Virus record (IMG/VR): IMGVR_UViG_3300025137_000132
Coordinates: 1-34,585 of that record
Origin: a virus
Length of the DNA stretch: 34,585 bases
Direction: 5' to 3' (one strand)
The notes beneath the pieces are model-generated. The model did not search any database. It saw only the letters and a list, made by a program, of their open reading frames with translations, and was not told where the DNA came from. Positions 3-9,775 of this stretch are shown piece after piece. A program made the translations under genes and the position numbers. Numbering within the stretch: the first letter of the stretch is position 1; each line of letters starts with the position of its first letter.

Positions 3-1592
3 GCTGGTCTAAAAGATAAAGGTCTTATGGGTCTAGGTATTCTTGCTGGTCTAGTTGCAGCTCCATTTGTAGCAATATCTGCATTTTTCACACAACTTGT
101 AAAAGAAGTAAAGTTTTTAGATACACTGTTGAAAGGTGGATTAAGTAAAGCGTTTGCACCAATAAAGGCGTTCTTTAACAATTTAGGTACTAAATTTAAA
201 GGAACTGGTCTAGGTAAAACAATTGATACATTTCTTGATACTGTTAAAAATCTTTTTAAGGTTGGTGATATTAAAGGTTTTAAAGGTCTTGCAATGTTTG
301 AAGATTTGCAGAAAACATTTGGTAGAGCAACAAGACCTATACTTGGTGTTATTAATGGTATAAAAAGATTTGGTAGAAGAGTATCAAGAATCTTTCGTAC
401 AATTAAAAGTGGTCTTTCTAGTATGAAAGGTTTTATGAAAGGGTTTGGTGCAATACAAACTTTTGCAAGAACTGTTGGTACTGTACTTGGTAAAATATTC
501 TTACCAGTTACCGTACTTATGACATTGTTTGATACAGTAAAGGGTGCAGTAAAAGGTTATGAAGATGATGGGTGGTTAGGTGCATTAGAGGGTGGTCTTT
601 CTGGTCTTCTTACTTCTATTATTGGTATGCCTCTTGATTTACTAAAAAGTGCAGTTGCATGGATGTTGGGTATGTTTGGTTTTGATGAATCAGCTGATGC
701 ACTCAAGTCGTTTAGTTTCTCCCAGTTAATTACAGATGGTATTGGTGCAGTCTTTGATTTTGGTAAGAAAGCATTTGCATGGTTTGGTCAGTTATTTACA
801 GACCCAGTAACAGCACTTAAAAATTTATGGACAGGCCTTGTCGGTGAAGGTGGTTTCCTTGACCTTATTACCACACCATTTAATCTTGCAGTAAATTGGT
901 TATTGGGATTATTTGGGTGGAGTGACCCAGAAAATAAATTTAACTTTTTAAGCACTGTTACAGGCGCATTTACTATGGCAGTTCAGTGGGTAAAAGATTT
1001 ATTCTCATGGCCTGAAGATGGTAATGTAGGAACAGCAGTAACTAAGTTTATTGATATTATTCTTGCACCATATAATCTTGCAGTTAATTGGTTAATGGGG
1101 TTATTCGGATTTAAACCAGAAGATTTTGGACAAGAAGGTGAAAGTTTCTCAATTGGTAAATTAGTCGTTGATGCAATAAAAGGTATCTATGAATGGTTTA
1201 AAGGTCTTCTTGATATTGATGTTGGTGCAATTGTTTCAAGTATTCCAGGCGCATCAACAGTTCTAAAAGCACTTGGTATTATAGATGAAAGTCCAGCAGA
1301 AAAAGCAAAGAATATAAAGACTGCAATTGCAGAAGCACAAAACAGAATAACAAGGTCTGAAGGTGGAGAAAATGTCTACTTTGGTCGTGAAGGTGTTGGT
1401 CAGTCTGATGATAAAGAAGAAATTGCATCACTACAACAAGAACTATTAGAATTACAATCACAAAACAAAGGTACAACTATCATTAATCAAATTGATAACA
1501 GTACTAATAATAGTGGGAATTCTAGTAATCAAACACTTTCATCAACACAATTGGTTGATGGTGCGGCTCCGGCTGGTGCTAAAATGGATTAA
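3..1592 (+). CDS. Virion/tape-measure-like hydrophobic protein, 5' truncated
   Basis: The frame is open to the window edge, so the N-terminus is missing; the first internal ATG is at 27. From that Met the 521 residues are rich in Gly, Phe, Leu and Lys, with long amphipathic and hydrophobic helices. A degenerate motif of the form NLAVNWLLGLFGW recurs near residues 208-219, 286-298, 316-328 and 350-362. The tail (about 480-505) is Asn/Ser-rich (NQIDNSTNNSGNSSN). This architecture resembles phage tail tape-measure or large internal virion proteins, but no family-defining motif is visible, so the role is inferred. It is the only plus-strand gene. Its TAA overlaps the stop of the convergent gene by 4 bases (1589-1592). 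Confidence 0.6.
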   Translation, partial: AGLKDKGLMGLGILAGLVAAPFVAISAFFTQLVKEVKFLDTLLKGGLSKAFAPIKAFFNNLGTKFKGTGLGKTIDTFLDTVKNLFKVGDIKGFKGLAMFEDLQKTFGRATRPILGVINGIKRFGRRVSRIFRTIKSGLSSMKGFMKGFGAIQTFARTVGTVLGKIFLPVTVLMTLFDTVKGAVKGYEDDGWLGALEGGLSGLLTSIIGMPLDLLKSAVAWMLGMFGFDESADALKSFSFSQLITDGIGAVFDFGKKAFAWFGQLFTDPVTALKNLWTGLVGEGGFLDLITTPFNLAVNWLLGLFGWSDPENKFNFLSTVTGAFTMAVQWVKDLFSWPEDGNVGTAVTKFIDIILAPYNLAVNWLMGLFGFKPEDFGQEGESFSIGKLVVDAIKGIYEWFKGLLDIDVGAIVSSIPGASTVLKALGIIDESPAEKAKNIKTAIAEAQNRITRSEGGENVYFGREGVGQSDDKEEIASLQQELLELQSQNKGTTIINQIDNSTNNSGNSSNQTLSSTQLVDGAAPAGAKMD

Positions 1593-3141: not shown

Positions 3142-3172
3142 TATTTATACACTAAAATGAACCCAAAGTCAA
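3142..3172 (-). promoter_or_regulatory. Dual early (sigma70) and late (TATAAATA) promoter of gp32
   Basis: The minus strand reads TTGACT (3172-3167), a 17-base spacer, then TATAAATA (3149-3142). The first six bases of the late element double as a sigma70 -10 (TATAAA). The TGA stop of thyX lies inside the -35 hexamer. A promoter usable by host holoenzyme early and by gp55-type sigma late suits a protein needed throughout replication. Confidence 0.75.
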
Positions 3173-4220: not shown

Positions 4221-4808
4221 TTACAAATACTCCTTAATAGTTGACATTGTTATAATCTTACACGATTGTTTATCAAAAGTCAAGACAGAACTGTAGTTTT
4301 TTATAAGTTTTTTTTGTTCTTTCCAGACGTATTGTTCTTCAATCTCTTCATCCCAATACTTACAGAAATCTAGTAGTGTTTCTAATATACACATAGTTTC
4401 TAGACTTACTTTTTTAGCAAGGAATTGTTTTAACAACAAAGGGTGTTGTTTATCTTTGACATGAAATAATTCATCAAATACTGTTACATTTTTGAATAAT
4501 TCATTTAGGTCATTCTTATAGTTATACTTTAAACTTTCAATCCTTTTACGATAATCCGAATAGTTCTCTTCACTAAAATTACCAACCCATGACTTAGGGT
4601 CTTTGATAAAGTTAGAGATAAAGAACTTAGTTACATTCTCTTCACTAATATATTTTCGTGCTACCTTTGCAAAGAATGGTCTATCCTTCCTTTTAAGATA
4701 TGAGTTCACTGTAACCTTAGCTTTTCCATGATACTTTGTATAGTCATAGTCACTGTTAAAGTGTAACTTCAATGCATGATATATTTTATAGGCGTCAAAT
4801 GCTTCCAT
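4221..4808 (-). CDS. 59: gp59-like replicative helicase loader
   Basis: A 195-residue homologue of T4 gp59 (217 aa), the all-helical protein that loads gp41 helicase onto gp32-coated forks. Matching segments include YDYTKYHGKAKV, RKDRPFFAKVARKY, FISNFIKDPKSWVGNFS and SDYRKRIESLKYNYKNDL, which track T4 gp59 along its length. The start at 4808 comes one base after the gp33 stop (TAACATG), which indicates translational coupling; an in-frame upstream ATG at 4868 would bury it in gene 33. The order 33-59, followed a few genes later by 32, is the T4 order. Confidence 0.88.
   Translation of the reverse strand: MEAFDAYKIYHALKLHFNSDYDYTKYHGKAKVTVNSYLKRKDRPFFAKVARKYISEENVTKFFISNFIKDPKSWVGNFSEENYSDYRKRIESLKYNYKNDLNELFKNVTVFDELFHVKDKQHPLLLKQFLAKKVSLETMCILETLLDFCKYWDEEIEEQYVWKEQKKLIKNYSSVLTFDKQSCKIITMSTIKEYL
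4255..4283 (-). promoter_or_regulatory. Sigma70-like early promoter inside gp59 3' end
   Basis: The minus strand reads TTGACT, a 17-base spacer, then TAAGAT. It would drive the coiled-coil gene, the small unknown gene and thyX. It shares its -35 hexamer and spacing with the other early promoters in the window, but the -10 is weaker. Confidence 0.5.
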
Positions 4809-4809
4809 G

Positions 4810-5043
4810 TTATATCGGCAGTGTTGCAACCTTTGGAAGATAGTTAAGGTTTCTCGCATCCACCTCAACCTTCTCTTTCAAAGATTTAGTTATTAGGGGT
4901 TTAATCATCTCTGGTTCTAACTGATACTTATCACAGTAATCCAATAATGCATCCATATATGATATTCCAGACTCTTGGACAGTTTTCTCAATTGATATAG
5001 AAAACTTCTTAGGTGTCATTAATTTTTCTTGTACTTCTTCCAT
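4810..5043 (-). CDS. 33: gp33-like late transcription co-activator
   Basis: A 77-residue protein matching the central and C-terminal part of T4 gp33 (112 aa), which bridges RNA polymerase and the gp45 sliding clamp to activate late promoters. The segment SIEKTVQESGISYMDALLDY aligns with the T4 IEKMVEEFGMSYLEA region, and IKPLITKSLKEKVEVDA with its continuation. I chose the ATG at 5043, which has GAGGAA at good spacing, over an upstream ATG. It is followed by gp59 with one intervening base, as in T4. Its presence fits the TATAAATA late promoters in this window. Confidence 0.82.
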   Translation of the reverse strand: MEEVQEKLMTPKKFSISIEKTVQESGISYMDALLDYCDKYQLEPEMIKPLITKSLKEKVEVDARNLNYLPKVATLPI

Positions 5044-5737: not shown

Positions 5738-6096
5738 TCGTGTTCTCCACCTCTATCCATAGGGTCTAACTTAATTCTTTTACCATTAAAGAACATACTT
5801 CTTGCACGGCTAGGTGTAGATGTAGGGAAATTGTTGAAAAAAGATGAGTTACGTTTTGCAGTTTCAAATGTCGCTACTGTAATTACAATTACAGCTAGTA
5901 ATATAACATGAGCTATTGCACTAAATCCAAATACATACCAACTACCTATAAGTTGAGCAAAAGTTGCACACCACATCCATGCAAGTATTTGTAGTATCAT
6001 ATGTCTTGTTTGTAAATCTGGAATATGTCTCAATGGATTCCTATCCATATTCATCACACCATTCCATGCATCATATATCCATTCTCTCATTCGCAT
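5734..6096 (-). CDS. Conserved phage membrane protein
   Basis: A 120-residue protein. A polar N-terminus (MRMREWIYDAWNGVMNMDRN, then PLRHIPDLQTRH) leads into two hydrophobic segments: about 33-52 (ILQILAWMWCATFAQLIGSW) and 56-76 (FSAIAHVILLAVIVITVATF). A basic C-terminal tail follows. This arrangement recurs in marine T4-like phages in my recollection, but no function is established. The ATG has AAGGA five bases upstream. It overlaps the oxygenase gene by 4 bases and the preceding small secreted gene by 10. Confidence 0.75.
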   Translation of the reverse strand: MRMREWIYDAWNGVMNMDRNPLRHIPDLQTRHMILQILAWMWCATFAQLIGSWYVFGFSAIAHVILLAVIVITVATFETAKRNSSFFNNFPTSTPSRARSMFFNGKRIKLDPMDRGGEHE

Positions 6097-6311
6097 TTAT
6101 CCTTACCTTGACAATCCACTGGGAAACAATCAAGTTGAATGTCATAATACTTGTTAGTATGATTTTTAGTCCATGAATTTTTATCAGATAATTGTTCACA
6201 CTGTTCAAGTGTGAATTCTTGGTTCAATACATCTTGATTACCTATGTAAGTCCATTCACCATCACCAGTTAATCCCCACATAGAAATGACTAATACAAAT
6301 AATTTTTCCAT
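6087..6311 (-). CDS. Small secreted Cys-containing protein
   Basis: A 74-residue protein with a hydrophobic N-terminus (MEKLFVLVISMWGLTG) resembling a signal sequence, then FTLEQCEQL and a Cys-rich end (IQLDCFPVDCQGKDKCE). The ATG at 6311 has GAGGA at proper spacing. A longer reading from a GTG at 6362 would run into the 3' hairpin of the tmRNA and is not favoured. It shares its layout (leader, Phe-x-x-x-Glu-x-Cys, later Cys) with two other small genes at 7415-7681 and 31309-31533. A periplasmic disulfide-bonded product is inferred. It is the first gene after ssrA and is probably co-transcribed with it. Confidence 0.65.
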   Translation of the reverse strand: MEKLFVLVISMWGLTGDGEWTYIGNQDVLNQEFTLEQCEQLSDKNSWTKNHTNKYYDIQLDCFPVDCQGKDKCE

Positions 6312-6377
6312 AATATCCTCTTCATAATTAAGTGGTGGTGTTTCTGTTTCCAAGTACACCACCGAAACTCAGTAAAA

Positions 6378-6422
6378 TTAAGCTGCTAGAGCGTAATCTA
6401 CAGGCGCAAAATTATCGTTTGC
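6378..6422 (-). other. tmRNA proteolysis-tag reading frame
   Basis: The resume codon GCA at 6422-6420 opens fourteen sense codons (A-N-D-N-F-A-P-V-D-Y-A-L-A-A) and a TAA. The ALAA ending matches the degradation signal read by ClpXP/ClpAP and SspB systems. The ANDN opening is typical of alphaproteobacterial tags. The A at -4 before the resume codon is retained. Confidence 0.93.
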
Positions 6423-6506
6423 ACTTATCAAGTTTGACCAATAACGCAGTCATCCGATAGTTCTACTCGCCTCTATTTCCGTCAGTCGAACCTATTTCAC
6501 CCCCAT

Positions 6507-6556
6507 CATAACTACTCTCACGCAGTGATTCACTATCTCATCTAAGAGTAGTTATG
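6507..6556 (-). other. Intervening hairpin of permuted pre-tmRNA
   Basis: The 6507-6518 and 6545-6556 arms form a 12-bp perfect stem with a 26-base loop, joining the acceptor CCA to the mature 5' G of the coding piece. The stem takes in two bases of the CCA, so RNase processing must open or trim it to free the 3' end. The counterpart in bacterial permuted tmRNA genes is excised. Confidence 0.8.
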
Positions 6557-6623
6557 GTGGAGGTGGAGGGTATCGCACCCTCGTCCTGCCCGTCATTCGA
6601 TTTGTATCATCAAACTATGATTC

Positions 6624-6654
6624 TATTTATACCAGATTACTCTTCAATTGTCAA
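6624..6654 (-). promoter_or_regulatory. Dual early/late promoter of the tmRNA
   Basis: The minus strand has consensus TTGACA (6654-6649), exactly 17 bases, then TATAAATA (6631-6624). TATAAA serves as a sigma70 -10 and the full octamer is the T4 late element. Transcription would begin near 6618, at the start of the acceptor piece. The -35 lies inside the 3' end of the thermonuclease gene. Confidence 0.8.
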
Positions 6655-7047
6655 GTTTAATTTTGACCTATTTGCAATATGTTCTTCTGCAATCTCATCT
6701 TTTGATTGACCATAATAACGTACTGCATGATGATTGTCAACCAATAACTGATTAATATTGTGTTCACCACCATACCAAATTTCTCCAAGAATACGTCCAT
6801 ACTTACCCTTACCATCTTTGAATGTTTTCAAAGATAGTTCACCAGCATTTGTCCATTTAGTTAGAAATGCAGATGCAGCTTTTCCGTATACTTTTTCTAC
6901 TTTGTCAGAAGTTCGTGATTCTGGCGTATCTATTCCATACATTCGTATACGTTGTTTTTGCATCCAAACACCAAATCCCAAGTCAATATCAACATCAACT
7001 GTGTCTCCATCAACTACCCTAACTAATTTACATTTATACTCATACAT
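6637..7047 (-). CDS. Thermonuclease (SNase-like)
   Basis: A 136-residue staphylococcal-nuclease-fold protein, about the length of the bare SNase domain. Active-site features are visible: VVDGDTVDVDIDLGFG (calcium-binding Asp), RIRMYGIDTPESR (the Arg35 and Glu43 equivalents) and GKYGRILGEIW (the Arg87 equivalent). It hydrolyses DNA or RNA to 3'-phosphate products. There is no signal peptide, so it probably acts in the cytoplasm, perhaps in host nucleic-acid breakdown for nucleotide recycling. It abuts the upstream secreted gene with no gap, and its 3' end hosts the tmRNA promoter. Confidence 0.92.
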   Translation of the reverse strand: MYEYKCKLVRVVDGDTVDVDIDLGFGVWMQKQRIRMYGIDTPESRTSDKVEKVYGKAASAFLTKWTNAGELSLKTFKDGKGKYGRILGEIWYGGEHNINQLLVDNHHAVRYYGQSKDEIAEEHIANRSKLNLTIEE

Positions 7048-7431: not shown

Positions 7432-7681
7432 TTTCTTTACCTTTTATTATGTTACTTAATGTTTGCATTATTTCTTTATCAACACAATTAATCATTTTAG
7501 GTGGTATTGTTTTTTCATATTTTTCATACGATTTATAGAATAAAATATCTTGATTATCTTGAACATAAGACACACATTGTTCTTTTGAACCAAATTCTAA
7601 AAATGGAATAAACAATGGTGTCTCTGGTTCTCCACCAGAATTAAGCTGCGTTGTCATTACGACTATTATGAACCACTTCAT
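7415..7681 (-). CDS. Small secreted Cys-containing protein
   Basis: An 88-residue protein from the ATG at 7681, where a hydrophobic leader (MKWFIIVVMTTQLNSGG) begins; an ATG 33 bases further upstream adds only a basic stretch. The mature part holds FGSKEQCVSYV and a second cysteine in KMINCVDKEI. The layout matches the small genes at 6087-6311 and 31309-31533, suggesting a family of phage periplasmic miniproteins. It overlaps the exonuclease gene by 41 bases. Its function is unknown. Confidence 0.6.
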   Translation of the reverse strand: MKWFIIVVMTTQLNSGGEPETPLFIPFLEFGSKEQCVSYVQDNQDILFYKSYEKYEKTIPPKMINCVDKEIMQTLSNIIKGKENETDI

Positions 7682-8348
7682 TTTCTTTTTCCCAATGCGT
7701 AGTGAAATCGTCAATCGCTTCTACTAGTAGTGGTAAGTAGTCATGTTTAGTCTTGATAAATTCTTGAACGATTCCATCTTCAGTTACAACTAGAATCACA
7801 ATCTGGTTGATTTCAATTCCAGTTCTCTCTTCAAACATTTCTGCATATGCAGATGCTTGAATGTAATAAGATTCATTCCAATCATCATTTCGTTCTCTTG
7901 TAGAGGTTTTGAAATCAATAATGGAAGGAATACCATTGTATTCACCAATACAATCAACTCTTCCTGCTACCATATATTTATCAGAATATAAACCACACTC
8001 TTGAGACATGATATTGTCTACCTTTTCTTTTAAGTGTGGTTTGATTTGTCCAAATAAAGTATATGGAAGGAAGTTCTTTTTATGAGTTTCATCATCAAAA
8101 TTATTATTGAGAAAGTCTTCGCACATATGGTGTACTTTCGTACCCCTTGCGGCCGCTGTTCTCGCAACATAGTTTGCAACATCATCACCAACTTTCTTTC
8201 TCCACGCCATTAGACCTTCCATCTTACGTCTAGATAGAACAGTAGTAATAGATGGGTAAAGTTTCCCATCTGGAGTTTCGTAGAAACGCTTGCGATTAAC
8301 AGTTTTAGTAGAGAGTTCTGTAATCTCTATTGGGTTGTGTGTAAACAT
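7641..8348 (-). CDS. PD-(D/E)XK exonuclease (RecB/Cas4-like)
   Basis: A 235-residue nuclease of the PD-(D/E)XK superfamily. The motifs run in order: PSITTVLSR near residue 33, RGTKVHHMCEDFL (motif I-type His), VAGRVDCIGEYNGIPSIIDF followed by KTSTR (catalytic Asp and the D-x-K pair), and YIQASAYAEMFEE (the motif IV Gln/Tyr typical of RecB and Cas4 families). Similar proteins are widespread in marine T4-like phages and probably process DNA ends during recombination-dependent replication. There is no CRISPR context. The ATG has AAGGA upstream and a dedicated promoter at 8377-8405. Confidence 0.85.
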   Translation of the reverse strand: MFTHNPIEITELSTKTVNRKRFYETPDGKLYPSITTVLSRRKMEGLMAWRKKVGDDVANYVARTAAARGTKVHHMCEDFLNNNFDDETHKKNFLPYTLFGQIKPHLKEKVDNIMSQECGLYSDKYMVAGRVDCIGEYNGIPSIIDFKTSTRERNDDWNESYYIQASAYAEMFEERTGIEINQIVILVVTEDGIVQEFIKTKHDYLPLLVEAIDDFTTHWEKENEVVHNSRNDNAA

Positions 8349-8376
8349 AATATATCCTTATCATTTAATTATAACC

Positions 8377-8405
8377 ATCATACCATAACTCAACACACTT
8401 GTCAA
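8377..8405 (-). promoter_or_regulatory. Sigma70-like early promoter of the exonuclease
   Basis: The minus strand reads TTGACA, 17 bases, TATGAT. It lies in the short gap between the GH108 stop and the exonuclease ATG. Confidence 0.7.
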
Positions 8406-8409
8406 GTCA

Positions 8410-8937
8410 TTAAATAAGTTTCATTGCAGACTGTGTAGTCTCTGTAACCCTTCTTGTCCAACCTCTACCAAAAGTTTTAAAGTGTTTTAACTTCTCATAA
8501 TACTCTTGTCTATCTGATTGGTATGTTTTGACAACATCTTCAATACCATGTTTATCAACATATGCATCAATCATTTTAAGTGAGTTGGGGCCGATACCAC
8601 CATCAACTGTTGTACCAACAATCTTTTGAATAAATTTAGCAGCTCGTCCAGTTCCAGCATTAACTCCAAAATCGAAAATGCAGAGTGCAAGCGCTGGGTG
8701 AAGTGCATCACCTTTTACTCTATCCCAATATTCAGTTTTATAGATAGGTGCAACATCTGTTACTTCTAATCTTTTCATGTCTTTCGGTCTAAGACCATTC
8801 TTTTTACAGTATGCATCATAAACTTTTTTAGTTACGCCTAAGTTGGTTTCACCGCCTGGGTCGCTGGGATGATTCACATAACCGCCTTCGTGATGCAAAA
8901 TAAGTTCTAAACAATGATTATATTCTTTGTTTATCAT
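8410..8937 (-). CDS. GH108-type endolysin (muramidase)
   Basis: A 175-residue lysozyme-like protein of glycoside hydrolase family 108. The catalytic Glu is in HHEGGYVNHPSDPGGETN (about E17), followed by the family's LGVTKKVYDAY, YKTEYWDRVKGDALHP and FDFGVNAGTGRAAKFIQ segments. A C-terminal region (VDGGIGPNSLKMIDAY) resembles the peptidoglycan-binding part of this family. It cleaves the glycan backbone of peptidoglycan. There is no signal peptide, so release would need a holin. Its ATG overlaps the stop of the upstream 45-residue gene (ATGA). The window also holds a SleB-type hydrolase, giving two wall-degrading enzymes. Confidence 0.92.
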   Translation of the reverse strand: MINKEYNHCLELILHHEGGYVNHPSDPGGETNLGVTKKVYDAYCKKNGLRPKDMKRLEVTDVAPIYKTEYWDRVKGDALHPALALCIFDFGVNAGTGRAAKFIQKIVGTTVDGGIGPNSLKMIDAYVDKHGIEDVVKTYQSDRQEYYEKLKHFKTFGRGWTRRVTETTQSAMKLI

Positions 8938-9071: not shown

Positions 9072-9775
9072 TATTGTTCAACCCCTTTCTTTGTTTTACT
9101 AATTAAATAACTACGAACTAAACCAGAACGAACAATATCACCAATATTAAATTCCACCGATTTGAACTCTTCCATGTCTGCAATAATATCTAAAAATCTA
9201 GGCATACCATCTTTATCAGAATTTTTAGTTAAATCTGATTGGAAGAAATCACCAGAGAAAATAATTTTACTGTCTTGACCTACACGAGTCATAATTGTAT
9301 CTAACTCATGAAAATTTAAGTTTTGACATTCATCAACTATAATAATTGCATTGTCTAATGTAATACCTCGCAAGTATGATGTTGTTAAAAACATAACAGA
9401 ACCTTGTGCTTTTAGTCTATCATACAACATTAAAAATGCTTGGTCATTTGCTTGTTTGAACATAAACTGTACCATGTTCTGATACGGAATTTGATATAAT
9501 GCTGTCTTATCTTCTTCATCTCCAGGCAAGAAACCAATTTCTCTTGTGGGTACTGCACTACGAATTAGATATACACAATCATATGGTGTAGATGGGTCTA
9601 ATACTTTTTCTAGTGCAAGGTACAAGGAAATAAACGTCTTTCCAGTTCCAGCAGCCCCATGAAGAAATAATTCTTTATTGTCTTTTTTAAATGCCTCAAA
9701 GGCAACTTTTTGATTATCAGTAATTGGTTTGACAGTTACTAAGTCATCAATTTTTACATCTTGTTTTTTTGCCAT
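9071..9775 (-). CDS. phoH: PhoH-like ATPase
   Basis: A 234-residue PhoH-family P-loop protein. Walker A is GAAGTGKT at residues 40-47, Walker B is IIIVDECQN with D148-E149, and a sensor-type SKIIFSGD follows. IRSAVPTREIGFLPGD is the family-typical segment after the P-loop. PhoH is one of the commonest auxiliary genes of marine phages. It is linked to the phosphate regulon in bacteria, with RNA helicase or ribonuclease-associated roles proposed, and its phage role is not settled. It sits in a tightly overlapped operon (1-base overlaps on both sides). Confidence 0.95.
   Translation of the reverse strand: MAKKQDVKIDDLVTVKPITDNQKVAFEAFKKDNKELFLHGAAGTGKTFISLYLALEKVLDPSTPYDCVYLIRSAVPTREIGFLPGDEEDKTALYQIPYQNMVQFMFKQANDQAFLMLYDRLKAQGSVMFLTTSYLRGITLDNAIIIVDECQNLNFHELDTIMTRVGQDSKIIFSGDFFQSDLTKNSDKDGMPRFLDIIADMEEFKSVEFNIGDIVRSGLVRSYLISKTKKGVEQ

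Follow-up and report, generated by a model that had tools for sequence, protein, structure and literature searches.

Circularly permuted, two-piece transfer-messenger RNA (tmRNA) genes have already been described in phages. The two-piece tmRNA of phage Melnitz was published in 2022 together with a survey that counted 53 two-piece tmRNAs suggested by ARAGORN among phage genomes (PMC9004378), and a 2025 tmRNA database holds 79 bacteriophage tmRNA sequences (PMC11915505). During T4 infection of E. coli, the host SsrA RNA remains stable, unlike the tRNAs, which undergo degradation (PMC9697503); T4-type infection can therefore proceed alongside ribosome rescue and may even profit from it. Here, we analyze IMG/VR virus record IMGVR_UViG_3300025137_000132 over its whole 34,585 nucleotides (the window), the sequence of a marine T4-like phage, which carries a permuted tmRNA gene on its minus strand. 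A preliminary description of the sequence had singled out a permuted form within a T4-like replication region as the standout item. The region is as described and also contains late-transcription genes, but the novelty was overstated. The phage permuted tmRNA is not a first: those of Melnitz and Mosig are annotated, that of HTVC008M is present and unannotated, and all three lie between an exonuclease gene and gp33. New here are the near-universal presence of the gene in the closest relatives of the window, its covarying stems, a tag that is probably selected as a peptide, a fused early/late promoter, and the finding of no phage SmpB in the records searched. Taken together, the locus very probably encodes a functional, phage-owned two-piece tmRNA with a dual early/late promoter, which would be processed by the host and rescue ribosomes with host SmpB.

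A complete permuted tmRNA gene

The minus strand from 6618 to 6331 is a complete circularly permuted, two-piece tmRNA gene of the alphaproteobacterial type, an identity confirmed far beyond chance. On this strand, ARAGORN identifies a tmRNA of the permuted type (tmRNA*) at 6649-6287, with the tag ANDNFAPVDYALAA. Two Rfam models match over their full length and without truncation: RF04321 (tmRNA_permuted) at 6618-6378 with 118.2 bits (gathering 47, E 1e-22) and RF01849 (alpha_tmRNA) at 6658-6331 with 113.9 bits (gathering 50, E 1.4e-30). The preliminary description had read a permuted tmRNA on the minus strand from an acceptor stem with a G.U third pair, a T arm followed by CCA, and an in-frame tag. 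All three are visible in the sequence, and the tmRNA models and finders it proposed as a check bear the reading out.

The acceptor piece comes first along the minus strand, followed by the intervening segment and the coding piece (Table 1). The two acceptor strands form a stem of 7 bp that includes G3.U, and the T arm (GAGGG-UGCGAUA-CCCUC) is followed by A and the encoded CCA that ends the piece at 6555. The tag is encoded in frame at 6422-6381, has a hydrophobic degron end, and is followed by a UAA stop. When both pieces are co-folded without the intervening segment, the acceptor and T stems form again.

Table 1. Features of the tmRNA locus and its neighbors, in window coordinates
Feature	Position	Strand	Details
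Fused promoter	6624..6654	-	sigma70 -35 TTGACA 6654-6649; 17-bp spacer; T4 late element TATAAATA 6631-6624; overlies 3' end of the staphylococcal-nuclease-like gene
Acceptor piece, 64 nt	6555..6618	-	P2 5' strand AUAGUU 6618-6613; T arm 6582-6566
Acceptor piece, 3' part		-	acceptor strand CACCUCC 6565-6559; discriminator A 6558; encoded CCA 6557-6555
Intervening segment, 50 nt, presumably removed	6505..6554	-	11-bp hairpin continuous with acceptor stem; fold -15.3 kcal/mol
Coding piece	6331..6504	-	5' acceptor strand GGGGGUG 6504-6498; P2 3' strand AACUAU 6462-6457; tag frame
Coding piece 3' hairpin	6363-6334	-	conserved loop CUUGGAAACAGAA
Tag reading frame and UAA	6378..6422	-	ANDNFAPVDYALAA; ARAGORN and tag comparison
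Staphylococcal-nuclease-like endonuclease, directly upstream of tmRNA	6637..7047	-	PF00565 E 4e-15; phrog_452; -35 element in 3' end of gene
PD-(D/E)XK exonuclease, conserved upstream neighbor	7641..8348	-	phrog_298 E 2e-66
Small open reading frame (ORF), downstream	6087..6311	-	ATG at 6311 after AGAGGA ribosome-binding-like stretch; no family match
gp33 late-transcription coactivator, downstream of tmRNA	4810..5043	-	phrog_254 E 3e-21
gp59 helicase loader	4221..4868	-	PF08993/PF08994; phrog_269

Conservation of the gene and its tag

The only search that presupposes no tmRNA was seeded with the neighboring exonuclease and collected the 80 nearest viral contigs by similarity to it. The tmRNA is present at the site in all 66 contigs that reach it, the other 14 ending short of the site. 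ARAGORN or the search pattern recognized 65 of these copies, and the last (contig L251) is divergent and was read by eye; L251 had been considered as the sole relative without a tmRNA, which the divergent copy contradicts. These contigs are redundant, collapsing to 23 groups after dereplication, and the 66/66 count describes the nearest relatives of the window, not T4-like marine phages in general. The Melnitz study reports a tmRNA in 17/47 related contigs (PMC9004378). Distances between tmRNA cores correlate with those between the exonucleases (Mantel r 0.64, 0/2000 permutations), consistent with co-inheritance.

A pattern scan with the 5' core of the coding piece matched at least 119 viral stretches, and pairing statistics were computed on 72 dereplicated phage copies among the matches listed. 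Pairing in the T stem is complete (100%, compared to 71% with swapped partners), even though a single position may show as many as four pair types, and acceptor pair 6 is either C-G or U-A. G3.U is kept in 72/72 copies, although the search pattern fixed the 5' G's and the U side alone is a free observation. P2 has 5.45 of 6 positions paired, against a mean of 4.70 and a maximum of 5.0 in 1000 partner swaps, in a test at a fixed offset and for the usual acceptor length only; a free-offset version gave a weaker signal. Compensatory changes accompany the preserved acceptor, T-arm, and P2 pairings. The intervening segment ranges from 8 to 499 nt among the listed copies, with its terminal stem kept (8.9 bp versus 4.9 when shuffled). 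Conservation in related phages, which the preliminary description had named as support, is seen in the paired stems, the tag frame, and the occupied site.

Some 30-odd relatives missed by ARAGORN were considered as possible carriers of a tag-less form like that of DS6A. For most of them this was rejected, since on reading they proved to be ordinary permuted tmRNAs; many have unusually short or long intervening segments, and in three the contig ends before a full tag can be read. A tandem pair of permuted tmRNA genes is present in one viral contig (L100), at 8159-8493 and 9090-9481, with the tags ANDNFASEDYALAA and ANENFALAA and a fused promoter each.

The tag was compared across 61 distinct 14-amino-acid tag DNAs. 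Ala is invariant at positions 13 and 14 (61/61), where three and four codons are used, respectively, and it occurs at position 11 in 59/61 (three codons); position 12 is Leu in 54/61 (four codons). Variation confined to third codon positions at the tag end is a coding signature, and the tag is therefore probably translated and under selection as a peptide. The tag ends in DYAQAA or DYAIAA in a few relatives; AQAA replaces ALAA in L189, L193, L206, L207, and L209, which could weaken recognition by the host protease. Four viral contigs (L043, L052, L069, and L076) have an unusually long tag of 29 amino acids as read by ARAGORN, ANDNALSNVTFVDFSAPVTAVNEDFALAA.

The fused promoter and the role of the tmRNA

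The late element of the tmRNA promoter lies 17 bp from a sigma70 -35 element. In T4, TATAAATA spans -13 to -6 (PMC1524935), and this rule predicts +1 at 6618, coinciding with the first base of the RF04321 match. The two parts also occur separately at other sites of the window, as TTGACW-17-TATAAT without the late element (17382 and 17110) and as TATAAATA without a -35 element (18098 and 2107). The other fused promoter of the window, TTGACT-17-TATAAATA, is found in the gp32 leader (3142-3149, minus strand), and other contigs have three leaders like it. All five copies of TATAAATA in the window are on the coding strand, and their number is near that expected by chance, so the promoter argument is drawn from placement across many phages and not from the window alone.

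Among the distinct tmRNA promoters of the contig set, 53 carry TATAAATA (TTGACW-16..18-TATAAATA), 10 carry TATATATA, and none carries TATAAT. The other sigma70-like promoters of the set carry TATAAT in 48 cases and TATAAATA in 7, two of which are misfiled tmRNA promoters. The difference between the two groups has a Fisher p of 1.6e-23, a value that ignores relatedness and overstates certainty. TTGACW-17-TATAAATA is present in 21/23 of the dereplicated exonuclease-seeded groups, and TATAAATA stands at the promoter in 0/51 alphaproteobacterial host tmRNAs. It also lies upstream of capsid and tail genes in the complete Melnitz genome. Of the proteins that serve T4-type late promoters, gp33 is encoded in the window, and a gp55-like sigma factor and gp45 are annotated in Melnitz. 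The fused promoter suggests that the tmRNA is made throughout infection, and it predicts early and late timing in contrast to the published early timing.

A tmRNA made early only, from a sigma70 promoter in which TATAAATA is just a tolerated -10 box, is the most serious alternative, though we consider it unlikely. TTGACA-17-TATAAA is a good sigma70 promoter, the Melnitz authors assign their tmRNA an early promoter and early action only (PMC9004378), and the ten promoters with TATATATA in place of TATAAATA fit this explanation as well. However, the ordinary early promoters of the same phages use TATAAT (48/55, as do the two in the window) and the late ones use TATAAATA, whereas the tmRNA promoters of the set never use TATAAT.

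Under the dual-promoter reading, the precursor would start at about 6618, with the promoter readable by host sigma70 polymerase as TTGACA-17-TATAAA and, later in infection, through TATAAATA by polymerase carrying the phage late-transcription proteins gp55, gp33, and gp45. Host tRNA-processing enzymes would excise the intervening hairpin to leave the 64-nt acceptor piece and the coding piece, which the acceptor stem and P2 would hold together, and host alanyl-tRNA synthetase would charge the RNA via G3.U. Host SmpB would then take it to ribosomes that have stalled on broken or nonstop mRNA, which would be increasingly frequent once transcripts are cut by phage nucleases and host RNases. The ribosome would switch to the tag frame, add ANDNFAPVDYALAA, and be released, and the tagged fragment would pass to host proteases. 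The expected benefit to the phage is that free ribosomes stay steadily available, early and late in infection, independently of transcription of the host tmRNA.

The phage RNA could instead act mainly by interfering with the host tmRNA, either through competition for SmpB and stalled ribosomes or by redirecting tagging with a different tag. Such interference is reported for the tag-less form of phage DS6A (PMC11915505), and the phage tags (mostly 14 amino acids, ending in YALAA) are longer than most sampled alphaproteobacterial tags. We regard this as improbable, as the window RNA has a complete tag with an Ala-Ala end conserved as protein, which argues that full trans-translation is retained. 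Far less credible still is a functionless fragment of a captured host gene or an integration-site relic, even though tmRNA genes often serve as integration sites and the Melnitz study raises capture from a prophage (PMC9004378). Against it, the gene has a fixed site in the related contigs, is co-inherited with the exonuclease, and has stems that covary, a tag that is conserved, and a dedicated promoter; the site is also surrounded by replication and late-transcription genes.

Several observations weigh against a functional, dually expressed phage tmRNA. Mosig and HTVC008M have no composite promoter, so the promoter is not a family-wide rule; the changed tag ends of some relatives (DYAQAA) might escape the protease; and the hosts of this phage group probably have their own tmRNA, leaving the need for a phage copy not obvious. 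We also found no expression, processing, or rescue data for the window or for related permuted phage tmRNAs.

It is easy to mistake phage tmRNAs for curiosities or relics. The fixed location, the covariation of the stems, the protein-level conservation of the tag, and the early and late elements of the promoter together argue for a standing requirement for ribosome rescue in these ocean viruses. It is about as likely as not that the tmRNA belongs to the core genes of a large clade of marine T4-like myophages and is passed on together with the replication module, its fused promoter moving trans-translation from host control to that of the phage throughout infection. As both Melnitz and its host are in culture, the timing and role of the tmRNA can be tested.

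Genomic setting and described relatives

The minus-strand order is PhoH, endolysin, PD-(D/E)XK exonuclease, small ORFs, staphylococcal-nuclease-like nuclease, tmRNA, two small ORFs, 2-oxoglutarate oxygenase, gp33, gp59, thyX, and gp32. In a near search, the whole window matched cyanophages and one further phage only weakly, with no close cultured relative in that collection; by gp32, the closest cultured relative is Melnitz (68% identity). No SmpB was found in 16 phage records (the window and 15 related ones, including 3 complete genomes). One scan of genome contigs for a host tmRNA with the distinctive T arm of the window returned only two distant Alphaproteobacteria.

The Methylophilales (OM43) phage Melnitz EXVC044M (MZ577097) likewise has a permuted two-piece tmRNA ahead of gp33-gp59-thyX-gp32, with the tag ANDNYVPVDYALAA, the same TTGACA-17-TATAAATA promoter, and 78% identity to the window over 173 nt. 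A glutamine riboswitch follows the Melnitz tmRNA, whereas none is matched after that of the window even at E<=1. The Pelagibacter (SAR11) phages Mosig EXVC030M and HTVC008M also carry a permuted tmRNA between the PD-(D/E)XK nuclease and gp33. Unlike the window, they have shorter tags (GEDNFALAA and ANFNEYALAA, respectively) and promoters without TATAAATA. The Mosig gene is annotated in GenBank, and a manA RNA motif (RF01745, 64 bits) lies downstream of its tmRNA region at 9371-9578. The HTVC008M gene (NC_020484, 5939-6280) is unannotated in GenBank/RefSeq.

The alphaproteobacterial two-piece tmRNA (RF01849) shares with the window the permuted order, the G3.U acceptor stem, a non-canonical T loop, and a conserved 3' hairpin with an AACAGAA loop; the phage form differs in its phage setting, its T4 late element, and its typically 14-amino-acid tag. 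Mycobacteriophage DS6A also has a tmRNA gene, which, as cited in PMC11915505, lacks a tag reading frame, while the window keeps one. For the MotA-less T4-like phages RB49, S-PM2, and Syn9, it has been proposed that early promoters overlapping with late ones constitute the middle mode (PMC2984593). The fused device is therefore already known, but in those phages it serves genes that are middle mode in T4, and its use for a tmRNA, as in the window, was not found in the literature searched.
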